17,943 nucleotides of DNA from Aureococcus anophagefferens (taxonomy: Eukaryota; Sar; Pelagophyceae; Pelagomonadales; Pelagomonadaceae), in assembly GCF_000186865.1 (NCBI RefSeq), contig NW_008705589.1, positions 432,204 to 450,146 of the forward strand, written 5' to 3'. This document shows positions 4,697 to 17,943 of this stretch, one piece after another. A model generated the notes under the pieces. It did no database searches. It had not been told where the DNA came from and worked only from the letters and a program-made list of their open reading frames with translations. The first letter of the stretch is position 1. The number at the start of each line of letters is the position of its first letter. Both the position numbers and the translations under genes were made by a program.

Positions 4697-7600
4697 ATGG
4701 AGTTCCTGAGCGATTGGCTCGGCGGCCGGCAGCGACGCCTCGAGTACGAGTCGGAGGAGCTGCTCTTTCTCTACATCCTGCGGACGCAGCATGCGTCGGT
4801 GTGGCGGGAGGCCCTGAGGCGCGGGTGCGTCGTCGTCGCGCCGCGGTCCGCGAGCCTCAACGCGGAGCGCGCCGTGAGCGGCTTCGAGGCGGGGGCACAC
4901 GTGCTCGTGCCGCGGGGCGCCGTCGACGGGCGCGGTGGCGGGGACGGCGGGTCCTTCGTGCCGCTCTGCGGCGACGCGCGCTCAGACGTGTCCGTCGTCG
5001 GGGTGGACGGGGTGATTCAGGTTCGCTTCCACTCGAGACCTCTCCGCGCACGTGTTCCAGAAAAAGGATCCACGCTTCGAGAGGGCGTCGAGCGCGCGAT
5101 CGCTCGTCCAAACACGAGGCGACGCGAGCGGACGCCGACCGAGATCGGAGCCTCGGACGTCGGGACGTTCTCGCCCTTTCCGTCTCCAGGTCCGTCGTCG
5201 GGTCCGAGCTCGTCGCGTCGGGCCCGGCCTACGGGCCGGCGCCCCGGCGCGTCCGCATCGTCGGCGTGGAGGACGTGGCCATCCCCGCGCCGCGCGGCGG
5301 CGCCGCGGCCACGGCGCCGCGCGGCCCGATGCGCGTGATCCGCGCGTCGATGCCCCTCGTCGGCGGCATCGCGGCCCCCGACGAGGCCGACGAGCTCTCC
5401 GGCGCGCACGTGAGCCGGCTCGTCGCGCTCCTGCGCTGCGAGCCCGAGCTCGAGGGCTGCTTCCGCGAGCTCGACGCGTTCGCCGCGGACGTGGCGCTCG
5501 CGCGCGGCCGCGCCCGACGCGCCGAGCCGGCGCGGACGTCCGGCCGGGACCGCGCTCGACCGCGCGCCGTGCGTCGCGCAGGTCGCCGACGCGCGGCCCG
5601 ACGGCGGCCTCGAGGCCATCTCGCCGTCGCTGGAGGCCGCGACCTTCGCCATGTGGCGCCGCGGCCGCGACGGCCTCCTCGCGGCCGGCGCGGGACGCGC
5701 GCTCGGCGTTGACGGCGAGACGGCCGCGCCGCGCCGCGCGGACACCGGATGTTCTCGAAAAGACTTGAACATGAGAATGCCCGAGCTCGTCGACCAGGCC
5801 TTTCGGCTCTCCTTCGAGAGCTCGACGAGAGAACACAACTCGTCCAAAAAGCAGCCGAAACGACGTCGACGTGACGGCGTTTGAGAGTTTCAAAGTTTGG
5901 TCAGCACCCCCCGAACCACTGATTCCTTTCACACAGGCGCTGCGGGTGTCGCAGGTCGTCGAGACCTACCTCCTCCGCGCGCTCCACGACGTCGTTTACC
6001 CCTGGCTCCTGCGGCGCTGCGCGCGTGACGAGCAGCGGCTCCTGGGCGCGCTCATGCGCCGAAAACGACCGGTGAGCTGGGAATTCCTGGCCAGACTTCG
6101 AACCTCTCTTATCTCCGTCGAATCGAAGTCGTTTCGGCTGACTTTTGGACGCGTCGTCTTTTCTCGTCGAGTTCTCGACGGACAGCGAAACGCGGTCGTC
6201 GAGCCGGTTCGAATCATCTCACAGTGAAGTCGAGTTGAATTCTTTTTGGCTCAGGCGCGCTCCGCGACGCGCGGACGGGCCGGCGGCGCGCCGCGCCGGA
6301 CGCGGCCGGCGAGTCGGACCCGCTCGGCCGACCATACCATCGGACCGCTCGACCTCGGTCGCCGAGGTCGCGGCCAACGCGCGTACGAGTCTCTCGTCGC
6401 GCGCTCGAGCGCCCACCCCCCTGTCACGCCCTTCGGCGAGGTCGCGCCCGGCGCAGGCGGCGCGACGTCCGCGTGCCGCGCTACGCGTGCGACCTCGACG
6501 CGGCGACGCGCGCGGCCGCCGAGGGCCTCCGCGCCGCCTCGTCGCCCCTCGACAAGCTCCTCGGCATGAAGCGGGTCACGGCCTGTGTGCAAATCAACCT
6601 CTGGTTTGGGACGTCCCGACCAAACTTCAAAATTCTCCAGCTCGGTCAAATCGAAGTCTTTTTGGCTGATTTTTGGACGAATCGTTGGCTCTTGTCGAGC
6701 TCTCGAAGCACAGCAGAAGTTATCGTGTCGAAACTGTCGAATGAGATCACATCGAATTCGGGTTGCAGATCTGATTTGCACACAGATCACGGCCGAGCTC
6801 ACGCGCGACGTCGAGCGCACCTACGAGCGCCGCCTCCGCCTCCGGGACGCGGGTGCGCCCGCGCCCGCGCCGCCGGAGCTCGCGACTGACGACCTCATCG
6901 ACCTCATCGTCCACCTGCTGGTGCACCGCGCCGTCCGAAGCGCCGACGCCGCCGGGTCCCGGGGGCGGCAGCGGCGCGCGCGCGCGGGGGGGGTGGCTGG
7001 CGGCTGCGCGGCGGCTCCTCCGCGCCGCCGGCGCGAGGCCCCGGGCCCCGGCGCAGGTCTCGCACCGCGACGCGTCGTCCGTGCCGCGCGGCCCCGCGCC
7101 CGAGCCGCGCGGCCCGCGCACGCGCCGCGCGCAGGAACCTCCCCACGGACCTCAAGTACGTCCAGATGTTCCACTTCGTCGAGGTCTCGACGAGCGCGCT
7201 CCCGGGCCAAACTTAAACGACGTTCGAGCCGACCTCAATGCGCGCGTATTCGAACGAGTTCGACAACTGTTCTTCGCGGTCCGTCACGAGCTCGACGAAA
7301 GAAACGACTCGAAAAATCGGTCGAAGCGACTTCGATTTGACCGAGATGGAGACGCTTAAAGGTTGGCCGGACGCCCCCAGCTCACTGGTCGTTCTTGGCG
7401 CAGGCGCGCTCGGCTTCTTCCTCTCCAACTTCGAGGTGGCCAATGACTTTCTCCTCGACCGGGGCCGCGACGAGCCGCGGCCCCCGGCGAAGCTCCTCGC
7501 GCCCGACCGCGCGGCGCCCCTCGCGCCGCCGCTCTCCGCGGAGGAGGGCGTGGATCGCATCCTTGCCGCTTCGACGCGGTCGTTCGAGGACGCCGAGGCC

Positions 7601-7744
7601 CTCCTCGACCGGGCCAGGCGGACGCCCCCCGCCTCGCCGCAGCGGGCCGGCGCGCGCAAGCAGAGCCCGCTCCTCCGCGCCCAGAACCTCGTCTCGGACG
7701 CCATTGAGTTGCCGCCACGGCTTCCCGAGATCATAGACCTCTAG
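4697..7744 (+). CDS. VPS9-domain Rab5-type guanine nucleotide exchange factor (ANKRD27/VARP-like N-terminus), multi-exon
   Basis: Proposed exons: 4697-4989, 5190-5490, 5582-5725, 5937-6045, 6255-6282, 6457-6574, 6786-6955, 7135-7193 and 7404-7744, giving about 520 residues. All phases agree. The N-terminus (WREALRRGCVVVAPRSASL, then HVLVPRG) resembles the start of ANKRD27/VARP and other VPS9 proteins. The VPS9 core is rebuilt by splicing: SPLDKLLGMKRITAEL (about 322-337), ELATDDLIDLIVHLLVH (about 354-370), NLPTDLKYVQMF and SALGFFLSNFEVANDFL (about 388-425). VPS9 proteins load GTP on Rab5/Rab21-like GTPases on endosomes. From memory of Rabex-5, the catalytic Asp is kept (TDDL), while the usual Pro, Tyr and Thr appear as Asp, Phe and Ser. 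No ankyrin repeats follow. The 5491-5581 intron is inferred from a frame change; the 6956-7134 intron is less certain than the introner-type ones. Confidence 0.8.
4990..5189 (+). mobile_element. Introner-type intron 1 of the VPS9 gene (reverse orientation, GT-AG)
   Basis: 200 bp, phase 2. The left target copy GTCCGTCG (4990-4997) supplies the GT donor and is repeated exactly after the AG at 5190; identity continues for 12 bases (GTCCGTCGTCGG). Splicing reads DVSVVGSELVASGPAYG without a break. The core word CTCGTCCAAA near 5103 is the reverse complement of the family core seen in other introns here. Confidence 0.85.
5491..5581 (+). other. Proposed 91-bp intron (or a frameshift) in the VPS9 gene
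   Basis: Coding sense switches from frame 1 (FRELDAFAAD) to frame 2 (VADARPDGGLEAISPSLEAA) between about 5490 and 5582. A GT at 5491 and CAG at 5579-5581 remove 91 bp and join the frames. No matching 8-bp target duplication is seen, so this is not clearly an introner. A sequencing or assembly frameshift anywhere in 5490-5560 would explain the same observation. Confidence 0.5.
5726..5936 (+). mobile_element. Introner-type intron of the VPS9 gene (reverse orientation, GC-AG)
   Basis: 211 bp, phase 0. The left copy GCGCCGCG and right copy GCGCTGCG (5937-5944) match at 7 of 8 positions; the GC donor is in the left copy. Splicing gives DGETAALRVSQVVETYLL. The element contains CCTTCGAGAGCTCG at 5811-5824, whose reverse complement recurs in the CAPZA intron and, for 13 bases, in the intron at 6575. 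Confidence 0.82.
6046..6254 (+). mobile_element. Introner-type intron of the VPS9 gene (forward orientation, GC-AG)
   Basis: 209 bp, phase 1. An exact 8-bp duplication GCGCGCTC stands at 6046-6053 and again at 6255-6262. The forward family core TTTCGGCTGACTTTTGGACG is at about 6131-6150. Splicing gives LLGALRDARTGR. Confidence 0.88.
6283..6456 (+). mobile_element. Introner-type intron of the VPS9 gene (GC-rich variant, forward, GC-AG)
   Basis: 174 bp, phase 2. An exact duplication GCGGCGCG occurs at 6283-6290 and 6457-6464. Inside it the ends are inverted repeats: CCGCGCCGGACGCGGCC on the left against CTGCGCCGGGCGCGACC as the reverse complement of the right end (14 of 17). The core is recognisable but GC-shifted (TCGGCCGA, then GGACCGCTCG). 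Only 28 bp of exon separate it from the preceding introner. Confidence 0.85.
6575..6785 (+). mobile_element. Introner-type intron of the VPS9 gene (forward orientation, GT-AG)
   Basis: 211 bp, phase 0. Target copies GTCACGGC (6575-6582) and ATCACGGC (6786-6793) differ at one base. Terminal inverted repeats are perfect over 14 bases: CTGTGTGCAAATCA at 6583-6596 and its reverse complement ending at 6785. The family core and the word CGAGCTCTCGAAG (6696-6708) are present. Splicing gives LDKLLGMKRITAELTRDVE. Confidence 0.9.
6956..7134 (+). other. Proposed 179-bp GC-rich intron of the VPS9 gene
   Basis: A frame change inside the VPS9 domain requires an intron. GT at 6956 and CAG at 7132-7134 join HRAVRSADAAG to NLPTDLKYVQMF, which restores the domain. 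No convincing 8-bp duplication is visible (3 of 8), so whether it belongs to the introner family is open. A donor elsewhere in 6917-6956 is possible. Confidence 0.6.
7194..7403 (+). mobile_element. Introner-type intron of the VPS9 gene (reverse orientation, GC-AG)
   Basis: 210 bp, phase 1. An exact duplication GCGCGCTC at 7194-7201 and 7404-7411 uses the same 8-mer as the introner at 6046, although the two elements are independent and oppositely oriented. Splicing gives FVEVSTSALGFFLSNFEVA. Confidence 0.88.
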
Positions 7745-8151
7745 ACCGTCATGTCCTCAGCTTCCCAGTAGCCTCGGACTTACTAGACAGAACACCGAGA
7801 ATCGCCGACAGCTGCGATAGTTCGTCACGGCCCGACCGTCCGACAGCCCGGCAGTGGCAGCGGCCGGCCATTCTTTACACGCAATGTCCAGTCAGCACAC
7901 GATGATTCGACGGACAGGGGGGCAATACGATCCAAGCCCAACTTTGGAACGGCTCTTTGTCCGAACTTGAATGGCTCCGCGGCCCGGGTTTGATGATGGC
8001 GGTTTGATATCCGTGGCTATGCGGGGCCCGCTGATAATAATGGTGAAACAAAAGTGCCGCAACAAAAACCGGCCCGTCGACGAGCGATTCGACACAGTGC
8101 GAACCCGCACCCCAACGGGTGTTGCCCACCGTCCGAGCTTCGCCGGCGGTT
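7745..8151. other. Intergenic region between convergent VPS9 and methyltransferase genes
   Basis: 407 bp with no supported gene. Open frames here are short or read through from neighbours. Composition is intermediate, with no notable repeat or strong hairpin seen by eye. Confidence 0.4.
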
Positions 8152-9033
8152 TTAACGGCCCGTGAAAGCCACGGCACCTGAGTTTGAGTTTGCCCTCGTC
8201 ACCTGGATGATCGCGACGCATTCCGTCGGGTTCGCGCGCGACGCGGCGAGCTGGGCGACGGGCACGCCCGCGCGGGTCGCGGCGCCCACGACGAGCTCGA
8301 AGATAGACTCGGGGGTGAAGGTGTGGAGGTGGAGGCCCGGCGCGGCGGGCGTCGCGAGGAAGGCCGCGGCCTGGTCCCGCGTCATCCGCGCGCCGGGCAG
8401 GCCGGCCGCCTCCTTGACGTGCGGCTCCATGGCGTGCTCCAGGAAGCTCCGCGCGACGCGCGCCGGGTCGCCGAGATCGGCGAGGTGGTGCGCGAGCGGG
8501 GTCGGTCCGGCGCGGTCTTTGTCGAACGTGTGGCGCATGCTCGGGATCGCCGCGAAGATGATGCCACCGGGCTTGAGCACGCGCGCCCAGGCCGCGAGCG
8601 CGCAGAGCGCGCAGGGCAGGTGCTCGAGCACGTGGTTTGCGATGACGAAGTCGAGCGAGGAGTTGGCGAACTTGCGGAGCGCCGCGCCGTCGTCGACGAC
8701 GTCGACGTGGAGCCGCTCGCGCCCCGCTGGCGCGGCGCCGAACTGCGCCGCGAGGCCCGCGTCGTCCTTGTGGTCGACGTAGATGACGCGGTTGCCGCGC
8801 CGGTCCACGGGCAGCGGCGTGTGCTTGGCGCCGATCTCGACGCCGACGCCGCGGATGTACTTGCCGGACAGCTGCTTCCGGCGCACGGACTGCGCGCCGC
8901 AGATCCGCAGGTCGGCCTCGCTCTGCACGGGCTTCAGGCCGTACGTGGGGGCGGCCTCCGACGTGCTCGGCGGGATCTCTACCTCCAGGGCGACGGCGAC
9001 GGCGACGAGCAGGGCCCCGGCGACGTGTCCCAT
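8152..9033 (-). CDS. Class I SAM-dependent methyltransferase (Methyltransf_11-like)
   Basis: Single exon, 293 residues from ATG at 9033. I chose this start because the frame upstream has no ATG and because it begins a hydrophobic leader (MGHVAGALLVAVAVALEVE) that could be a signal peptide or anchor. The fold markers are in order. Motif I is GVGVEIGAKHTP (62-73) and the motif II region is VIYVDHKD (83-90). These are followed by SLDFVIANHVLEHLP (126-140), the typical acidic/His loop, and ARVLKPGGIIFAAIPS (150-165). A later HTFDKDRAGPTPLAHHLAD (168-186) resembles a block found in bacterial-like methyltransferases of polysaccharide or small-molecule pathways. Substrate unknown. The absence of introns contrasts with the neighbouring VPS9 gene and would fit a bacterial-type origin, but this is weak evidence. 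Confidence 0.82.
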   Translation of the reverse strand: MGHVAGALLVAVAVALEVEIPPSTSEAAPTYGLKPVQSEADLRICGAQSVRRKQLSGKYIRGVGVEIGAKHTPLPVDRRGNRVIYVDHKDDAGLAAQFGAAPAGRERLHVDVVDDGAALRKFANSSLDFVIANHVLEHLPCALCALAAWARVLKPGGIIFAAIPSMRHTFDKDRAGPTPLAHHLADLGDPARVARSFLEHAMEPHVKEAAGLPGARMTRDQAAAFLATPAAPGLHLHTFTPESIFELVVGAATRAGVPVAQLAASRANPTECVAIIQVTRANSNSGAVAFTGR

Positions 9034-9137
9034 GCCAGGGCTGCCCCAGCAGGCCGGAACCAAGAGGCCGGCCCACGACTGCCCACGACACCAAGCACCA
9101 CTAATCTCCGGGGGGCTGCCCAAGAGCGAGCGGCGCA
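9034..9137. promoter_or_regulatory. Short bidirectional promoter region
   Basis: 104 bp between the divergent ATGs of the methyltransferase and the downstream basic ORF. It must contain both 5' ends if both genes are real. No TATA-like element is evident. Confidence 0.45.
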
Positions 9138-9659
9138 ATGGTGCAGATCGACAACGTCGAGCTCGTTACAGGCGAGCGGCCCTCGACGCGGCGACGCCCC
9201 TTCGCCATGGACCTCGACACGCGGCGCGGCACGAAGGGCGGCGACCTCCCGATCCCCGAGGGCTCGGCGCCAGTGGCGTCGGGCCTGAGCGACGACGGCT
9301 ACCCTTCTTCGCGCCAGAACACGATCTCGCGGCCTCGGAGCGCGCCGCCGGCGGACAAGATGACCTCCCACGACGGGGCGGCGCTCCGGAGCAAGTCGGC
9401 GCGCGCGCGCAAGCATCGGCGGGGCGACGCGTCCCGCGCGCGGGGAGACCTGGAGCGGGCCCGGCGGGCCTTCGTCGAGCCCCGGCCGAACGCGGCGCTC
9501 GCCACCCCCGACGCGAGCGGCGCCGCGGCCGACCCGCCGAGGCCCAGGACCGCGCCCCGCCGCGACGGCCTCTCGCCGTCAAATCCTCGCAGGCGCGAGG
9601 ACGCGGTCCTGTCCGAGCTCGGCCTCGGCCTCCTCTACCTGTGCTTCGTCCACGTTTAG
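9138..9659 (+). CDS. Uncharacterised basic, probably disordered protein
   Basis: An open frame of 173 residues begins with ATG immediately after the divergent promoter and ends at TAG 9657-9659. I do not recognise it. The N-terminus (MVQIDNVELVTGE) looks protein-like. The middle is rich in Arg, Ser, Pro and Ala with little predicted structure (DKMTSHDGAALRSKSARARKHRRGD). The last residues (ELGLGLLYLCFVHV) are hydrophobic. Regular spacing from the methyltransferase favours a real gene. High GC makes long chance frames common, and a CAG at about 9592-9594 could be a 3' splice site, so the C-terminus is uncertain. Confidence 0.45.
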   Translation: MVQIDNVELVTGERPSTRRRPFAMDLDTRRGTKGGDLPIPEGSAPVASGLSDDGYPSSRQNTISRPRSAPPADKMTSHDGAALRSKSARARKHRRGDASRARGDLERARRAFVEPRPNAALATPDASGAAADPPRPRTAPRRDGLSPSNPRRREDAVLSELGLGLLYLCFVHV

Positions 9660-9781
9660 CACGCAAAAGACATCGGGGTGCTATTTCAAAAAAAATTCCG
9701 GGCCATCACAAGACAAATCAGAGGGTGCGCTAGTTCCATTCGGACCGTGACGAAGCTACCGCCGACGGACAGGTGTCTTGA

Positions 9782-9840
9782 CCTTGGGTGTCCGGTGGTC
9801 GGGATGCGTGGCCTTGGGTGTCCCATGGTCGGGATGTGTG
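9782..9840. repeat. Two tandem copies of a 30-bp unit
   Basis: Units 9782-9811 and 9812-9840 share CCTTGGGTGTCC, GGTCGGGATG and GTG with a few substitutions. The repeat lies in non-coding sequence downstream of the basic ORF. Confidence 0.8.
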
Positions 9841-9936
9841 CCGCGGCCTCGACGGGCGACGACGTCGGGGGGCTCGGCGGCGGCGAGAGAGGCATCGAGG
9901 CCGCTGGAGCTGGACAAGGGGGCTCCAACGTTCTGA

Positions 9937-10006
9937 CATGAGTATCATGAGTATGTATTCTAAGTATGTATGAGTAATGAGTAGTATGAGTATGTGAGTG
10001 TGAGTA
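9937..10006. repeat. Degenerate ATGAGT/GAGTAT microsatellite
   Basis: About 70 bp of interrupted GAGTATGTAT/ATGAGT words, strand-asymmetric (purine-T rich). It is a low-complexity tract with no coding potential. Confidence 0.8.
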
Positions 10007-10429
10007 GCCCTTTACGGGAAGGCGAGTCAATCTGCCGACGCCGATGTCCCTGCGAAATACCAACGTTCCCCCAGCCGGGACGTTTCACCTGACTTGCAGT
10101 CAGGCATTTTCGCGCTACAGAGAGCGTTTAGCGCACAGGAGATGGTAACATTTCCCAACCACCTAGGAGGCGGTTCACTGGGTTAGTTGTCGGGGTTGTT
10201 TAAAATTTCAAGTACCCATTTTAGTGAAGGGTAGCCTAGCTAAATCCGAGTCCCTTTACAGCGTACAAGCCTGTGGCCACCGCGCGCCACCATCAATGGC
10301 GCCGGATACGCCCCTTGGTTTTGGGCGCGAGGTGGGTGTGACGGCTGGAGAACGCGGTTTTCCGGCGGTATGATGTACCACGCCGCCGCGCACGCAGAGG
10401 GGCCCCTGCGCGACGGTGCGTGCCGCGGT
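10007..10429. other. Non-coding stretch with two adjacent hairpins
   Basis: No gene is supported. Perfect inverted repeats occur at 10088-10104 (CCTGAC, loop TTGCA, GTCAGG) and 10112-10134 (GCGCTA and TAGCGC with an 11-base loop), separated by 7 bases. They might be part of a small structured RNA or a transcript end, but nothing identifies a known family. Confidence 0.4.
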
Positions 10430-10640
10430 CCCCGGCCACGTCCCCGGCCCGTGCCCGGGCCGTGCCCGGGGCCCCGTGCCGGGCCCGTGCCGGGCCTCCC
10501 CGGCCCGTGCCCGGCCCGTGCCCGGGGCCCGTGCCGAGTGCCGGGCCCGTGCCGGGCCGCGTGGCCCGTGCCCGGCCCGTGCCCGGGGGCCCGTGCCGAG
10601 TGCCGTGCCGCGTGCCGGGCCCGTGCCGGGCCGCGTGCCC
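10430..10640. repeat. GC-rich satellite built from degenerate GCCCGTGCCGG units
   Basis: About 210 bp made almost only of permutations of GCCCGTGCC and CGGG. A higher-order duplication of about 65-75 bp is visible: the order CCCGGCCCGTGCCCGGGG, GCCCGTGCCGAGTGCCG, GCCGGGCCGCGTG appears twice, in about 10506-10563 and 10566-10640. The tract sits where the C-terminal half of the kinase gene would be expected. Long open frames on both strands across it are artefacts of composition. Confidence 0.85.
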
Positions 10641-10649
10641 TGAGCGCAT

Positions 10650-11690
10650 TTACCGTGCCGGAACCCCCGTGCCCGCCGTCCCCGCCCCCCGTCCCGGGGC
10701 CGGACCGTCGCGCAGGGGCCCGTACGCAGCGGTGCCGCGGGCGCCGCTGGCAGAAACACCGCCCGCGTAGAGCGCGCCCGACCCGGCGAGCGCGGCGCCG
10801 AGGTCGCAGCCGCGGACGAGCTCCATGGCGATGAGCATGCCGCCGGCCGTCGACGGCACGCTCGCGAGCTTCGGGAGCAGGTAGAGCACGCCGACGAGCT
10901 GCGGGTGCGTCCCGAGGCTGATGGACAGCGCGGCTTCCGTCGTGAGCCGGCGCTCGAGCGCGCGGCGCCGCGCGGGCGCGAGGTCCGCCGCGCGGACGGC
11001 CTTGAGCGCGAAGTCGCGCCGGCGGCCGCAGCGCGGCGGGCCCGCCGCGCGGTAGACCGCGCCGAAGGAGCCCGCGCCGAGGCATTCGCGGACCGTGCAC
11101 TTGAGGCGGCCCGCGACGACGACGTCGAAGCCGGGCGCGTAGGCGTCGTCGCCGCCGCCGGCCGCGGCGACCCCGCCGTCCGTGGCGGCCGTGAGGCAGC
11201 CGCGCTCGCTCGCCGCGTCGAGCGCGTAGCGGCCGCCGTCGAAGCGGCTCACGTGCGTCCGCGCGAGCACGACGGCCGACGCCGCGCCCGCCGCGAAGGA
11301 CGCCGCGCCGCCGCCGGCGTTTCGCGGCAGGGGCGGCAGGCTGTGCGCCGCGCCGGCGCCGCCCGCGCGGACCTCGAGGTCGTCGACGGCCGCCGCGGCG
11401 ACGACGTCGTCCTCGCCGATCGTCGACATGCCCACGCAGACGTCGTCGTCGTTGGCGACGCGGCAGCGCCGGCTCCGCCGGTTCCGCTTCGGAGGCCTCC
11501 CATAGCGCACGGGCATGCGCCGCGGGTCCAGCGGCAGGACGGTCCACGTGGCGCCCGCCGGCGCGCGCGCCGCGCCGAAGGAACCTGCGCCGAGGTGGGC
11601 AGCCCGGCAACACCAGGGGCAAGCTTCTCCGAAGCGCTCGCTTCCCATTGGCTCCCACCTCTCGGGCGTCGCTGACAGGACCGCCGCCAT
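10650..11690 (-). pseudogene. Truncated protein kinase: N-lobe present, catalytic C-lobe missing
   Basis: A 346-codon frame from ATG at 11690 to a stop at 10650. A kinase N-lobe is plain at about residues 198-305. It has the glycine loop CLGAGSFGAVYRAAG, DFALKAV with the ATP-binding Lys, LTTEAALSISLGTHPQLVGVLYLL with a candidate helix-C Glu, and MLIAMELVRGCDLGAAL as the hinge. The frame then passes into glycine/alanine-rich sequence bordering the GC satellite and stops. No HRD or DFG motif is found there or in the 1 kb beyond. A glycine-loop-like stretch (LGAGSFGAARAPAG, about residues 33-46) also occurs near the N-terminus, perhaps a relic of a duplicated segment. Alternatives to a pseudogene are an assembly collapse across the satellite or distant exons outside the window. 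Start codon is uncertain. Confidence 0.65.
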
Positions 11691-11753
11691 CGTCGAGTCC
11701 GAGGAGTTCCACCAAGGACACCACGTCGAGCAGGTGCTCGTGAGTCGAGAGCC
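11691..11753. promoter_or_regulatory. Very short divergent promoter of kinase and helicase
   Basis: Only 63 bp separate the two head-to-head ATGs. If both starts are right, the promoters and 5' UTRs must overlap. The sequence shows no obvious TATA-like element. The helicase is expected to be highly expressed, so this may be mainly its promoter. Confidence 0.4.
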
Positions 11754-14245
<2,492 letters not shown>

Positions 14246-14600
14246 CTAGTTACTGCACGCGCGCCGTACGAGAACATCCTCCCCCACACGCGTCTTGATA
14301 ACGAGTTTCGGATGGGTGGCCATGAGCGCGTCGACGGCGGCACGCGTGAAGAGTGCCTGCGATTCGCTCGCGTCGAAATACAAATGCTCCAGCTTTTTGC
14401 AGCCACGACCGAGCGCATAGAGTGCCTCATCTGTGAGGATGCAATTTGGTGCGGCGACATGCAGGAACGGAGTGGGGTCGGGGCCGCGGAAAAAAAAAAG
14501 TCCGAATTTCGACTTGGAGAGTTGGTGCACGTTTCCATAGGTCCGTCAGCGATGATCCACCGTAGTCCGTCGAAGTAATAGCTTCCGAATTGGGCTTTGC
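14246..14600 (-). pseudogene. Leucine-rich-repeat (F-box/LRR-like) 3' remnant with a homopolymer frameshift
   Basis: A 94-codon frame at 14530-14246 contains ILTDEALYALGRGCKKLEHLYFDAS and AAVDALMATHPKLVIKT. This is two repeats of the cysteine-containing LRR type found in F-box/LRR (AMN1-like) proteins. Upstream sequence in another frame reads ITSTDYGGSSLTDLWKRAPTLQVEI, also LRR-like. The switch falls at a run of ten A on the plus strand (about 14490-14499). The simplest reading is one LRR protein end broken by a length change in the run, or a sequencing error there. No start or F-box is visible between this and the PH gene stop 30 bp upstream, so it is a remnant or a 3' exon of something rearranged. 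Confidence 0.5.
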
Positions 14601-14632
14601 CGCTACTCGGAGCCCGGGCACAAGAAAGCGGC

Positions 14633-15660
14633 TCACGCGCGCACGACCCGAGACGCGGCGTCGAGGTCGTCGGCGCTCGCCTGGGCCGGAGCCGCGCGCG
14701 ACGCCTTCGGCTTGAGCCGCTCCTTCGCCTCGGCGACGATGAGCGCGAGGCCGTCGGCGAACATCTGGCACCGCTGCTCCGTCTCGAAGCCGACGACGAG
14801 GCGCCGCGCCGCGCAGTGGATCGTGAGGACCTGGGCGGGCCACGTGTCCACGTCGATGTCTCGCGCGCGGATCGCCGGACCGGTTCGACGGACGACGGCG
14901 GCGCTCCGCCGAGGCCCCGACGGGAGCGCCCGAGCCGTCCAAACATCGGCCGGAACGCGCGTCGATCCGGCGGAGCTCGCGGCGTCCGGCGGTCGGCCGC
15001 GCGAGCCCGGCTCGCGTCGGGCGCGGGTCGAGGACGCGCTTGGCCTCGTCGCCCTGGAGGAGCCGGCTCGCGCGCGCCTCGCAGCCGCGCGACACGTCCT
15101 CGATGTCGACGAGGAGGAGCGCGTCGAACCTGCGGCGCGCGCGCGTCCGCAGCGCCGCCGGTGGCCGCGCGCTCCCCCCCCCCCCAGCGCGCGGCCGTCA
15201 CGGCGCCGGGGGCGGACTTGTCGCCGTTGACGACTTTGGCGGTCTTCTTCGTCTTCCACTGGACCTGCGGCGGCGCGCGGCGGCGTCGCGCGGGGCGTCG
15301 CGTCGCCCGGCCCGCGCCGCGCCGCGCCATCTGCTCGTTCGTGTCCAGGAGGAAGATGCGCGGCGCGGACCGCCCGTTGCGGTTGTACTTGAAGCCCGCG
15401 AACCCCCGCTCGCGCATCGTCTGCTTGAACTCGCGGACGAAGAGGTCCGCGGACTCGGTCACTCGCGCGGCGTCGTTGACGCGCGCGGTCCGGATGTCCC
15501 CGCTGCGGTCGTTGTGCTTCCGCACCTTCTCGATGGCCTTGTCGTCGACGGCGTCGCCGCCGCCGCAGAGCCAGAGCGAGCTGAAGAAGCCCTGGTCCAC
15601 GTCCGCCCGGAGCACGTCCCGCTTTGCCGCCGGCTCCTCCTTCGATGGCGTCGCGCCCAT
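14633..15660 (-). CDS. PH-domain protein with N-myristoylation signal, four exons
   Basis: Proposed exons on the minus strand: 15660-15328, 15264-15218, 15129-15036 and 14830-14633. They give 223 residues with all phases consistent. The start MGATPSKEE is a textbook N-myristoylation signal (Gly2, Ser6). A pleckstrin homology domain of the phospholipase C type is rebuilt across all four exons: IFLLDTNEQM + VQWKTKKTAKVVNGDK + FDALLLVDIEDVSRG + VLTIHCAARRLVVGFETEQRCQMFADGLALIV. The run from DTNEQ to DVSRG matches the order of strands in PLC-delta PH domains. No catalytic PLC domain follows, so it is a small membrane-targeted phosphoinositide or protein binder. The first intron (63 bp, GC-AG) and the second (88 bp, GT-AG, holding a run of C/G) are inferred from domain continuity. 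The gene is divergent from COMMD7. Confidence 0.78.
14831..15035 (-). mobile_element. Introner-type intron of the PH-domain gene (forward orientation, GT-AG)
   Basis: 205 bp, phase 0. In transcript sense the left copy GTCCTCGA and the right copy GTCCTCAC match at 6 of 8. The right end reads CCCGCCCAG like the helicase introner. The internal core CGGCCGATGTTTGGACGGCTCG is clearly related to the family. Splicing joins LLQGDEAKR to VLTIHCAARR and completes the PH domain. Confidence 0.82.
15130..15217 (-). other. Proposed 88-bp intron of the PH-domain gene
   Basis: GT-AG, phase 2, joining VVNGDK to FDALLLVDIEDV. The flanks GTCCGCCC and GTTCGACG agree at 5 of 8, too weak to call a target duplication. 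It contains a long C run on the plus strand near 15174-15185. Confidence 0.65.
15265..15327 (-). other. Proposed 63-bp GC-AG intron of the PH-domain gene
   Basis: Removing 15265-15327 joins NEQM to VQWKTKK. The segment is in frame and has no stop, so it could instead be read as an Arg/Ala-rich insertion. Removal is preferred because the inserted residues would break a PH beta hairpin. Confidence 0.55.
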
Positions 15661-15846
15661 GCCGCCGCACCGAGGTCTCCTCCGGACGGCGCGGCCGGAC
15701 GCGCGCGACGCGACGATGACCGACCCTCCCCGCGACGCCGGGTCACACCACCATGGAACGGCTCCAGGGGCAGCCCCTGGTAGCCCCGGGGCCGTGGATA
15801 AGCGCGTCCGCCGCGGCGCCGGGGGCCGTGGGTCTCTTGGGGTACG
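15661..15846. promoter_or_regulatory. Bidirectional promoter region of PH-domain gene and COMMD7
   Basis: 186 bp between divergent ATGs, GC-rich. A palindromic word CAGGGGCAGCCCCTG-like cluster lies near 15766-15780. No TATA-like element is evident. Confidence 0.5.
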
Positions 15847-16563
15847 ATGTCACTCGCCGCGGCCTTCTCAGAGGCGGTCGGCGCCCAGCTGAAGGACGAC
15901 CTCGGAGCCTTGGGCGAGTTCCCGAGGCAGTCCTTCGCGGACCTCGTCGAGCTCGTGCTGCGGCTCGTCATCAACCCCACCGACGGCGTCAAATCCGCCG
16001 CCGTCGCGACGGAGCTCAAGCAGTTCGCCGCGGCGACGAAGATCACGAACATGGCGGTCCTCCAGGCCGGCGCGCGCGGCCTCGTGGCGCGGCCGCCCCG
16101 CGTCCAGCCGCCGCGCGGACGCGCGCGCGCGACGGCGCGGCGCCCGCAGGCGGTGCTCCAGCTTGCGGCGCGGCGCGGCAGCTCGGGTCGCGAGGTCCGC
16201 GAGGCCTCGGGCGCGCTGGGTCTCGACGGCTCGCGCGCAGAGGCCCTCGGGCGGCTCTGGGAGGGCGCCGTCGCCCCGCCGGGGGCGGGCCCCGGCGTCG
16301 GCGACGACGACGAGCTCCTCCCGGACGTAGAGACGCTCCGGCGGCTCGTCGACCTCGAGTGGAAGTTCGGCGTCACGGCGGCATCGTCCGAGTCCGGCGC
16401 CGGCACCGTCGGGAGGACGTTCCTCCAGCTCGAGCTCGTCCTCGACGCGCCCGGCGGGGGCCTCGAGCGCGTCTACCTCGAGCTGACCCTGAATCAGTTC
16501 TACGAGTTCCTCGCCCACATGGAACGCGCGAAGGCCGCCCTCGCTAGCATCGTCGCGCGCTGA
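15847..16563 (+). CDS. COMMD7: COMM domain-containing protein 7 (Commander complex subunit)
   Basis: An open frame of 238 codons; about 216 residues after removal of a likely 66-bp intron. The C-terminal COMM domain is very close to COMMD7: LVDLEWKFGVTAASSES, GRTFLQLELVLD and VYLELTLNQFYEFLAHMERAK. The N-terminal helical part (FADLVELVLRLVINPTD to ALGLDGSRAEALGRLWEGA) matches the family's helical domain. COMMD proteins form a ten-subunit ring in the Commander complex, which recycles membrane cargo from endosomes with CCDC22/CCDC93 and Retriever. The gene overlaps nothing; its stop lies only 34 bp from the stop of the convergent CAPZA gene. No introner is present. Confidence 0.92.
   Translation: MSLAAAFSEAVGAQLKDDLGALGEFPRQSFADLVELVLRLVINPTDGVKSAAVATELKQFAAATKITNMAVLQAGARGLVARPPRVQPPRGRARATARRPQAVLQLAARRGSSGREVREASGALGLDGSRAEALGRLWEGAVAPPGAGPGVGDDDELLPDVETLRRLVDLEWKFGVTAASSESGAGTVGRTFLQLELVLDAPGGGLERVYLELTLNQFYEFLAHMERAKAALASIVAR
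16084..16149 (+). other. Likely short intron (63-66 bp) of COMMD7
   Basis: The stretch between ITNMAVLQAGARGL and AVLQLAARRGSSGREV encodes only Arg/Pro/Ala and is absent from the family. GT at 16084 (or GC at 16087) and CAG at 16147-16149 remove it in phase 0. The frame stays open if it is retained. Confidence 0.6.
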
Positions 16564-16597
16564 GAGATATGGGCGCGTCGGGAGGTATGGGCGCGAT

Positions 16598-17700
16598 CTA
16601 CTTTCGGAGGTTTTTGTTGAGGGAAATCTCGTGGATGTTCCACTTCATCTTCGTGCGGGTGATGGGCATGACGCGCCTCATGGCCTTGAACGTCTCCGCG
16701 GACATGTTGTCGTACATCTCCTGGAGGCCGTTCTGGAGGTCGGTCTCGGCGGCCTCGACAAACGCGGCGACGGCCGCGCCGAGGTCCGCGGGCGACGCCG
16801 CCGCGACGGTCGCCTCGCCGCACGTCTTCGACGTCTGGAGCTGGACGTTGCCGTCCTCGAAGTAGTGCGCGCGGACCTTGACGGCCCCGCTCACGAGCGC
16901 CTCGCCGTCGCCGAGGACGACGGTCCACTCGGACCGCCAGTTGCCGGACCAGAAGTTGCGCAAGTTCACGGACTCGCCCGAGATGACGACGGCGAGCTCG
17001 GACGCGTCGTCGGACTCGTAGACCGCGCCGCACTTGCACTCGGCGCCGTAGCGCGCGCCGACGTAGGCCCCGACGGCGGCGGCGACGGCATCGCGCTCCG
17101 CCGCGAAGGCCCCCGGTGCCGCCGGGCCGCCGCCGGCCTCGGCCTCCGCGGTGAGCGCGACGTGGTCGACGCCTGCGCGGCGCCCGGTCGGCGGTCTCTG
17201 GGGTCCCCGGCGGACCCGGAGCGCCCGGGCTCGGCCGCGGCGGCGCCGTCTTCGTCGGCCTTCGGACGGGCGAGCGTCCCCCGGCGAGCTCTCGAAGGGA
17301 CCGGTCGACGGCGTTCGAACGGTCCTCGCGTGGAGCGCGGCGCGAAGCTCCGGGTGCCGCGCGGGTCGACGCGGTACGCGCCGGAGCCCGGGACCGCGTA
17401 GAGCGTCGGCTCGAGCTCGCCGCGCTCCGAGAGGAGCACGAGGGTGCCGTCCGCCGCCCGGGCGCAGCGCAGGTTCGCGTTGTTGTAGGCGCGGGCGATG
17501 CCCGCGAGCATGGGCCGGCTCACGAGGTCGCCGGGCACGAGCGCCATGGCGTCGCTCAAAACGTCGTCGAACTCGCCGGGCGGCGACGAGAGCAGCAGGT
17601 GCTGGACGATCTGCAGCTTCTCCTCCGGAGACGCCTGCTCCTCCTCCTCCTCCTCCTCCTCCTGCTCGCCGTCGTTCGTCGCCTCCTCGAAGTCCGCCAT
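16598..17700 (-). CDS. CAPZA: F-actin-capping protein subunit alpha, two exons
   Basis: Exons on the minus strand 17700-17349 and 17172-16598 give 308 residues, slightly longer than the usual 280-290. ATG at 17700 is chosen because no in-frame ATG precedes it. After an acidic N-terminus with a Glu run (a CTC-type trinucleotide tract at about 17638-17663) come ASPEEKLQIVQHLLLSSPPGEFDDVLSD, the family's opening motif, and later FWSGNWRSEW, HYFEDGNVQLQTSK and ETFKAMRRVMPITRTKMKWN, all diagnostic. The protein pairs with the beta subunit to cap the barbed ends of actin filaments; the C-terminal tentacle is present (ISLNKNLRK). The intron separates DPRGTR from VDHVAL, in line with DPRN...FDHLR of animal proteins. 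Convergent with COMMD7. Confidence 0.93.
17173..17348 (-). mobile_element. Introner-type intron of CAPZA (reverse orientation, GC-AG)
   Basis: 176 bp, phase 1. The donor GC at 17348 and acceptor CAG ending at 17173 restore the capping-protein sequence. Target copies GCTTCGCG and GCGTCGAC agree at 5 of 8, so it is older or the donor is slightly misplaced. Family membership is shown by CGAGCTCTCGAAGG at 17285-17298, identical (14 of 14) to the reverse complement of the VPS9 intron word at 5811-5824. The core TCGGCCTTCGGACG is next to it. Confidence 0.78.
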
Positions 17701-17943
17701 AGCCACAGCTTTTTATGTATGATATTGACGAGATTCTTCTGTCCGAGGCTTCAAACAAAAAATATATCCGAAATAAATATGCTTCGTTTTTCCACCCCCG
17801 GGGCGTTTTATGGGCCCTCAGCGACCCCCCCACCCCCCGTCCCCCGGCCCCCCGGCGGCCTGGACGCGTACTGGGGCGCTGTTTCCAGGAGGTTGTCGCG
17901 TCCGGGCCGAGCGAAAGTCGGACCCCCCCCCCACCCCCGTCAA
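17701..17943. promoter_or_regulatory. Upstream region of CAPZA, ending in C-rich low-complexity DNA
   Basis: About 17710-17790 is AT-rich (ATATATCC, AAATAAATATGC) directly upstream of the CAPZA start and is the likely promoter. From about 17796 to the window end the sequence is dominated by runs of C, with no gene seen. Confidence 0.5.

Follow-up and report, generated by a model that had tools for sequence, protein, structure and literature searches.

No source of sudden intron gain is better documented than introners, and how a transposon turns into an intron can rarely be observed. In the pelagophyte Aureococcus anophagefferens, Huff, Zilberman and Roy (Nature, 2016) reportedly described introners as introns of ~210 bp with terminal inverted repeats and direct repeats, one splice site being said to come from the element and the other from the duplicated target. 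Here we analyse ten introns in the final 17.9 kb (17,943 bp, "the window") of a 450-kb contig of this species (G000:C29:432204-450146; genome 49.05 Mb, 86 contigs), which a sequence-only reading had attributed to one family of introners. Described here, for the same species, are a split of the element ends into two types (A and B), a lock of type B to one direction and symmetric relatives that are not introns.

It has been stated that every introner of A. anophagefferens carries direct repeats and terminal inverted repeats of constant length (PMC7789003). Gozashti et al. (2022) reported introner families with duplications and terminal repeats, both insertion orientations being allowed in their search (PMC9860276). 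Like those families, the copies described here take the 5' splice site from the duplicate and the 3' splice site from the element; unlike the Aureococcus sp. example of Fig. 2F in the same paper, where both splice sites are carried and 12 bp are added to the transcript, they restore the empty site. GC-AG introns were reported in 2011 to make up 39.6% of A. anophagefferens introns, a share called not easily explained (PMC3033335).

The ten introns as probable insertions of short DNA elements

The ten introns (Table 1) are almost certainly insertions of short non-autonomous DNA transposons, the introners of A. anophagefferens. The phenomenon is already known in this species, and the identification as introners made in the sequence-only reading is supported. 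We propose that a transposase would insert the element at an 8-bp target and duplicate it, the left target copy, when it starts with GT or GC, providing the 5' splice site. The element's terminal inverted repeat would end in the 3' splice site (...CACAG for type A and ...GCCCAG for type B), and removal of one duplicate together with the element would restore the empty site exactly.

Copies gathered via the window introns, end patterns and arbitrary stretches yielded two consensuses on a common core, type A (203 bp, CTGTGTG ends, CTGTGTGSAAATCAA on both sides) and type B (192 bp, C[A/T]GGGCAG ends, C[A/T]GGGCAGSAAAAG), which share 117 identical and differ in 52 columns when aligned end to end; the single family of the earlier reading has therefore to be replaced by two terminal-repeat types on one core. 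The exact A end CTGTGTGNAAATC is present 567+549 = 1,116 times in the genome (reversed control 0 and 0) and the B end pattern 833+825 = 1,658 times (controls 1 and 0), which amounts to more than 2,700 exact ends. The first 100 A ends listed contained 32 complete pairs and the first 100 B ends 33, from which a rough extrapolation gives at least ~870 A and ~1,260 B copies, a lower bound because decayed copies lack exact ends. The sample obtained by profile searches, from 83 loci and the window, comprises 71 A and 40 B copies, 111 different ones in all. Six profile matches fell in the 17.9-kb window and four in five arbitrary 10-kb stretches, so that on these small numbers the window looks introner-dense; the effect in it is ordinary for the species. 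Two short A copies with intact ends, L039:1501-1647 and C2:537951-538113 (147 and 163 bp), are internal deletion derivatives. As for viral carriers, one exact end each was found in 75 and 20 viral-contig stretches, a second end with a matching duplicate in 0 pairs, and the matches were taken as chance.

The similarity between copies stops at the duplicates. In the 29 A copies that were chosen by both ends, with no fitting of boundaries, the 8-bp duplication is exact in 23 and the element is 203 bp long in 26.

Coding context, target preference and splice sites

Sufficient flanking sequence was available for 109 of the 111 copies, and 102 had a duplicate matching in at least 6/8 positions and at least 3 of 4 end letters. 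These were examined with a codon model, for which the helicase and capping protein genes of the window served as the first training set and confident stretches as the second (GC of 0.71, 0.50 and 0.98 at the three codon positions); it found the right frame in 10/12 training pieces, the capping piece being cut at that time at a slightly wrong junction. Left and right coding frames agree across the reconstructed empty site in 95/102 insertions (chance 1/6; p 6e-65). By the same model 92/102 insertions score as coding, as against 1,222/1,836 positions in five arbitrary stretches, which were spaced 25 bp apart and are non-independent. Three or more of the ten insertions that score as non-coding score low on one side, perhaps owing to proximity to other introns.

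In the gene sense, the 92 coding insertions begin with GC (49), GT (38) or another dinucleotide (5), and 88 end with AG. The duplicate starts with GY in 85/92. The half of it that is unused in splicing ends with RC in 39/92, compared with 22% in nearby exons (p 8e-6). This excess argues for a two-sided target preference (GY....RC) that offers a donor in either direction, splicing selection doing the rest, and with 49/92 GC donors it offers a cause for the 39.6% of GC-AG introns (PMC3033335). Intron phases are 0 in 38, 1 in 27 and 2 in 27; phase 1 is favoured by GC donors (24/49) and avoided by GT donors (1/38). The coding share, the GY....RC duplicate as donor source and the AG of the terminal repeat were not found in the papers that could be searched, a set outside which the 2016 study lies.

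The core lies in gene sense in 40 and antisense in 52 of the 92 insertions (type A 22 and 35, p 0.11; type B 18 and 17). The best scores place it in sense in five of the ten window introns and antisense in five, an assignment that is unreliable for the two weak introns, 6283 and 17173. The antisense placement of about half the copies relative to the gene had been overlooked in the sequence-only reading.

Alternative origins of the introns

Similarity to the two family consensuses was expressed as z values against 300 shuffles of each intron. These are 22-41 in six introns and 8.7 and 8.5 in the introns at 13466 and 14831. The following points weigh against the transposon origin. Two of the ten introns, at 6283 and 17173, resemble the consensus weakly (z 3.5 and 4.0), and their membership is probable mainly by virtue of their splice ends and an exact 8-mer; the common core that had been ascribed to all ten is therefore clear in eight and weak in two (6283-6456 and 17173-17372). 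The ends of most copies were fitted partly on the match of the duplicates, which inflates the duplication counts there. At these fitted ends 5/92 insertions are without GT/GC and 4/92 without AG. Finally, searches with PF05699, PF18758 and PF04937 found no transposase, the control genomes being silent as well.

The two weak introns, which barely exceed their shuffled controls, are what could be said for ascribing the likeness to gene duplication, gene conversion or the base composition of ordinary introns, an explanation that can be put aside with hardly any reservation: three host genes are unrelated by domain, the likeness stops at the duplicates, z exceeds 20 in six introns and 8 in two more, and the exact ends are genome-wide. 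In a second control with GC-matched genomic pieces, seven introns were reached by 0-5/300 draws, those at 5726, 6046 and 7194 by 27, 21 and 21/300; for such AT-richer introns the control is contaminated, because the genomic pool contains four introner copies. Spread by an RNA route, which has been proposed for fungal introners and could involve reverse splicing or the transposition of introns from spliced RNA, would fit the near confinement to coding sequence (92/102) and the copying of exactly one intron unit; it is nevertheless very improbable, since the 8-bp target duplications, terminal inverted repeats and two-sided target preference are marks of DNA transposons, and reverse splicing of sense RNA would yield one orientation instead of the 40 sense and 52 antisense observed. 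Transposition, presumably by a hAT-like transposase, with subsequent splicing in the cell, would account for the ten introns.

Directional lock of type B

Type A elements have the AG-making base at both ends. The B end search pattern left the second base free, and in all 33 complete introner-length B pairs among the first 100 listed ends, all of them on contig C1, one end has CT and the other CA (28) or CG (5); single-base intermediates (CTGGG...CCCAG or CAGGG...CCCTG) were not seen among these 33. The base at the acceptor end is right in 18/18 coding B copies with a sense core and in 16/17 with an antisense core, while T occurs at the gene-sense 5' end in 0/34 copies (A 22, C 7, G 5). The outer bases thus lock B to one direction whichever way the core lies, which suggests that a single letter in the end of the element sets the direction of intron activity.

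Two ways of reaching this arrangement have to be weighed. A single change could have made the acceptor, with the core inverted later between the two terminal repeats, or the asymmetry of the outer bases could reflect point changes that arose repeatedly, selection acting after every insertion. A tree was calculated for 26 of the 40 B copies with the 18 end bases left out. The antisense class (T at the left and A-complement at the right of the core) does not form a single clade in it (AU p 0.0047), so that the orientation must have switched more than once, which favours repeated changes; branch support was low (1/23 branches starred). Switching orientation by substitution, however, requires two coordinated changes, and the absence of T at the gene-sense 5' end in 34/34 B copies concerns a position where splice selection is not evident. 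One core haplotype is represented, by its first base at least, in seven of ten antisense B copies; L014, L150 and L008 carry the core of the sense class. Repeated point changes are an appreciable, if somewhat doubtful, possibility; inversion of the B core between its terminal repeats is the explanation that we prefer.

Symmetric relatives and a possible one-base step from hAT-like elements

A 479-bp element that is not an intron (C1:618576-619054, L142:1501-1979) carries CAGGGCAGCAAAAGGGCG at both ends and has no duplicate; a 502-bp relative (C32:77547-78048, L159:98-599) has the exact duplicate CGCGCGAC. The two have ~150 bp in common at each end (95 and 98% identity) and unrelated middles, and genome searches with each found just the other. 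They are possibly deletion derivatives of an unseen autonomous element. With introner B they share 18-bp ends, in the symmetric CAGGG form and neither with an AG-making end; these ends are all that is common, the interiors showing no similarity to the introner core beyond that of shuffles, by which the interiors are ruled out as the origin of the core.

The 8-bp target duplication of the introners is like that of hAT transposons and their miniature inverted-repeat transposable elements (MITEs), among them Mar, with 8-bp duplications and CAG(G/A)GG ends (PMC3517528). The plant hAT end pattern [T/C]AGNGNNG (PMC6027215) fits CAGGGCAG, the sequence present at the non-acceptor end of B and at either end of the 479- and 502-bp elements. 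The ends that make the acceptor, CTGGGCAG and CTGTGTGG, in contrast miss it by the second base, and neither A end fits. Derivation of A from a CAGTG-ended ancestor was considered and dropped: a count by eye of 92 A-like ends whose second base is not T gave just 12 with A, which is indistinguishable from decay. A hAT-like ancestor is therefore supported for B and not for A.

We tentatively propose that hAT-like MITEs may have become introners through one base: a change of the second base of the terminal repeat from A to T, by which ...CTG at the far end becomes ...CAG, a 3' splice site, CAGGG being ancestral to the acceptor-making end. Type B would have changed at one end, acting in one direction with its core flipped more than once, and type A at both ends, acting in either direction; the GY....RC target would supply the GT or GC donor both ways and could account for the species' many GC-AG introns. 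An end resembling the wild type (CAGGG) and the end that makes the intron (CTGGG) occur on the same elements, and the symmetric non-intron relatives survive in the same genome, which makes the proposed one-base step testable at the bench. Neither the lock of type B nor the symmetric relatives were found in open-licence literature, outside which Huff et al. and supplementary files fall, and we do not claim that they are unpublished.

Neither hAT transposase (PF05699, PF04937) nor KDZ transposase (PF18758) was matched in the A. anophagefferens genome, a result that does not establish absence as the control genomes were silent too. Candidates for an autonomous partner resolved into known elements: two A ends 4.5 kb apart (C1:357296 and 361782) belong to two neighbouring introners, all 12 loci found by altering the inner bases of the A end are introner copies, and the four places with CAGGGCAGCAAAAGGGCG are two introners and the two ends of the 479-bp element.

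Acceptor constraint, age and decay

In type A the second base of the terminal repeat is changed at 14/57 non-acceptor ends and 2/57 acceptor ends (p 0.002; mirror-image test), whereas over the whole 15-bp repeat changes are equally frequent at the two ends (59 and 64 in 55 copies), a contrast that speaks for use of the acceptor. AT/GC mismatches between duplicates have G or C on the intron copy in 13 cases and on the exon copy in 1. Copies of lower identity to the consensus are richer in GC (Spearman -0.59 in A and in B), and mismatches between duplicates increase with falling identity in A (p 0.003) and not significantly in B (p 0.27). When the sample, which favours young copies, is ranked from the most diverged, the six window copies found by profile take places 1, 3, 4 and 15 among the 71 A copies and places 1 and 13 among the 40 B copies. 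With 78-80% GC, the GC-rich introns of the window are in keeping with the old end of the series, so that the partly very young set that had been suggested is unsupported.

Introns of the window

Introns 5726, 6046, 6575 and 7194 are good matches to type A and introns 4990 and 12622 match type B, 13466 and 14831 are decayed and nearest A, and 6283 and 17173 are weak; the A and B profile search of the window gave no match to intron 6283..6456 at E 10.

Table 1. Introners and probable introners of the window, with core orientation relative to the gene, 8-bp duplicates and profile matches
Position	Strand	Assignment	Core	Splice sites	Duplicate	z	Profile match	Remarks
4990..5189	+	type B	antisense	GT-AG	GTCCGTCG 8/8	23.6	B, 5180-5010, E 2.7e-28	duplicate plus 192-bp element make up the intron
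5726..5936	+	type A	antisense	GC-AG	GCGCCGCG/GCGCTGCG 7/8	22.0	A, 5936-5761, E 3.3e-30	
6046..6254	+	type A	sense	GC-AG	GCGCGCTC 8/8	22.2	A, 6061-6240, E 1.2e-33	
6283..6456	+	probable decayed introner		GC-AG	GCGGCGCG 8/8	3.5		174 bp; score 52, shuffle maximum 50; weak sequence membership
6575..6785	+	type A	sense	GT-AG	GTCACGGC/ATCACGGC 7/8	39	A, E 7.5e-65	best preserved of the window
6583..6785	+	203-bp element inside intron 6575..6785						terminal inverted repeats CTGTGTGCAAATC...GATTTGCACACAG
7194..7403	+	type A	antisense	GC-AG	GCGCGCTC 8/8	22.7	A, 7393-7223, E 5.5e-27	
12622..12820	+	type B	sense	GT-AG	GTCGCAGA 8/8	41	B, 12631-12820, E 7.4e-59	DEAD-box helicase gene; splicing restores DBP2-like protein
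13466..13670	+	older introner, nearest A	antisense	GC-AG	GCCGGCCG/GATGGTCG 5/8	8.7	A, E 0.019	helicase gene; 80% GC; junction fits DBP2
14831..15035	-	older introner, nearest A	sense	GT-AG	GTCCTCGA/GTCCTCAC 6/8	8.5	A, 14977-14912, E 0.0026	79% GC
17173..17372	-	probable decayed introner		GC-AG	GCGTCGAC 8/8	4.0	B, 17261-17297, E 0.25	F-actin capping protein alpha gene; type unclear

At the boundaries first given for the ten introns the 8-mer is repeated exactly in five of them, while two more have 7/8, one has 6/8 and the remaining two have 5/8, and these ends and lengths agree with the sequence. The intron of the capping gene, however, starts at 17372 instead of 17348, 24 bases earlier on the minus strand, where the 8-mer is exact (GCGTCGAC/GCGTCGAC), and the corrected junction drops eight extra residues that are absent from the orthologues P0003, P0007 and P0010 in an alignment. 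The tally becomes six exact, two 7/8, one 6/8 and one 5/8.

An eleventh intron, missed previously, lies in the VPS9 gene at ~6932-7132 (~200 bp, 89% GC) between ...HRAVR and NLPTDLKY...; no 8-mer repeat reaching 6/8 was found for it, and at an approximate boundary it did not resemble the consensuses.

Host genes and surroundings

The hosts had been described as unrelated, which holds by domain for the Rab GEF, helicase and capping protein genes; the supposed PH protein gave no Pfam match. The Rab GEF product has a VPS9 domain (PF02204, 33.2 bits, cut-off 27). The helicase is of the DBP2/DDX5 DEAD-box type and, with both introns removed, matches DBP2 without gaps across both junctions. Once its junction is corrected, the capping protein matches CapZ alpha; its best matches (of 164) are from A. 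anophagefferens, AURANDRAFT_13582 and JL722_4068, at 95% and 81% in the search and 99% and 88% in a multiple alignment, the gaps being explained by differing gene models. The public capping proteins P0002, P0005, P0006 and P0040 extend into the introner or pass around it, and the gene models now available for this site therefore appear to be wrong.

Between the helicase and the next gene (~13900-14600) the sequence seems poorer in GC than the DNA on either side, and it has a run of A near 14490. At 17780-17943, beyond an AT-rich region upstream of the capping gene, the contig ends in C-rich runs.

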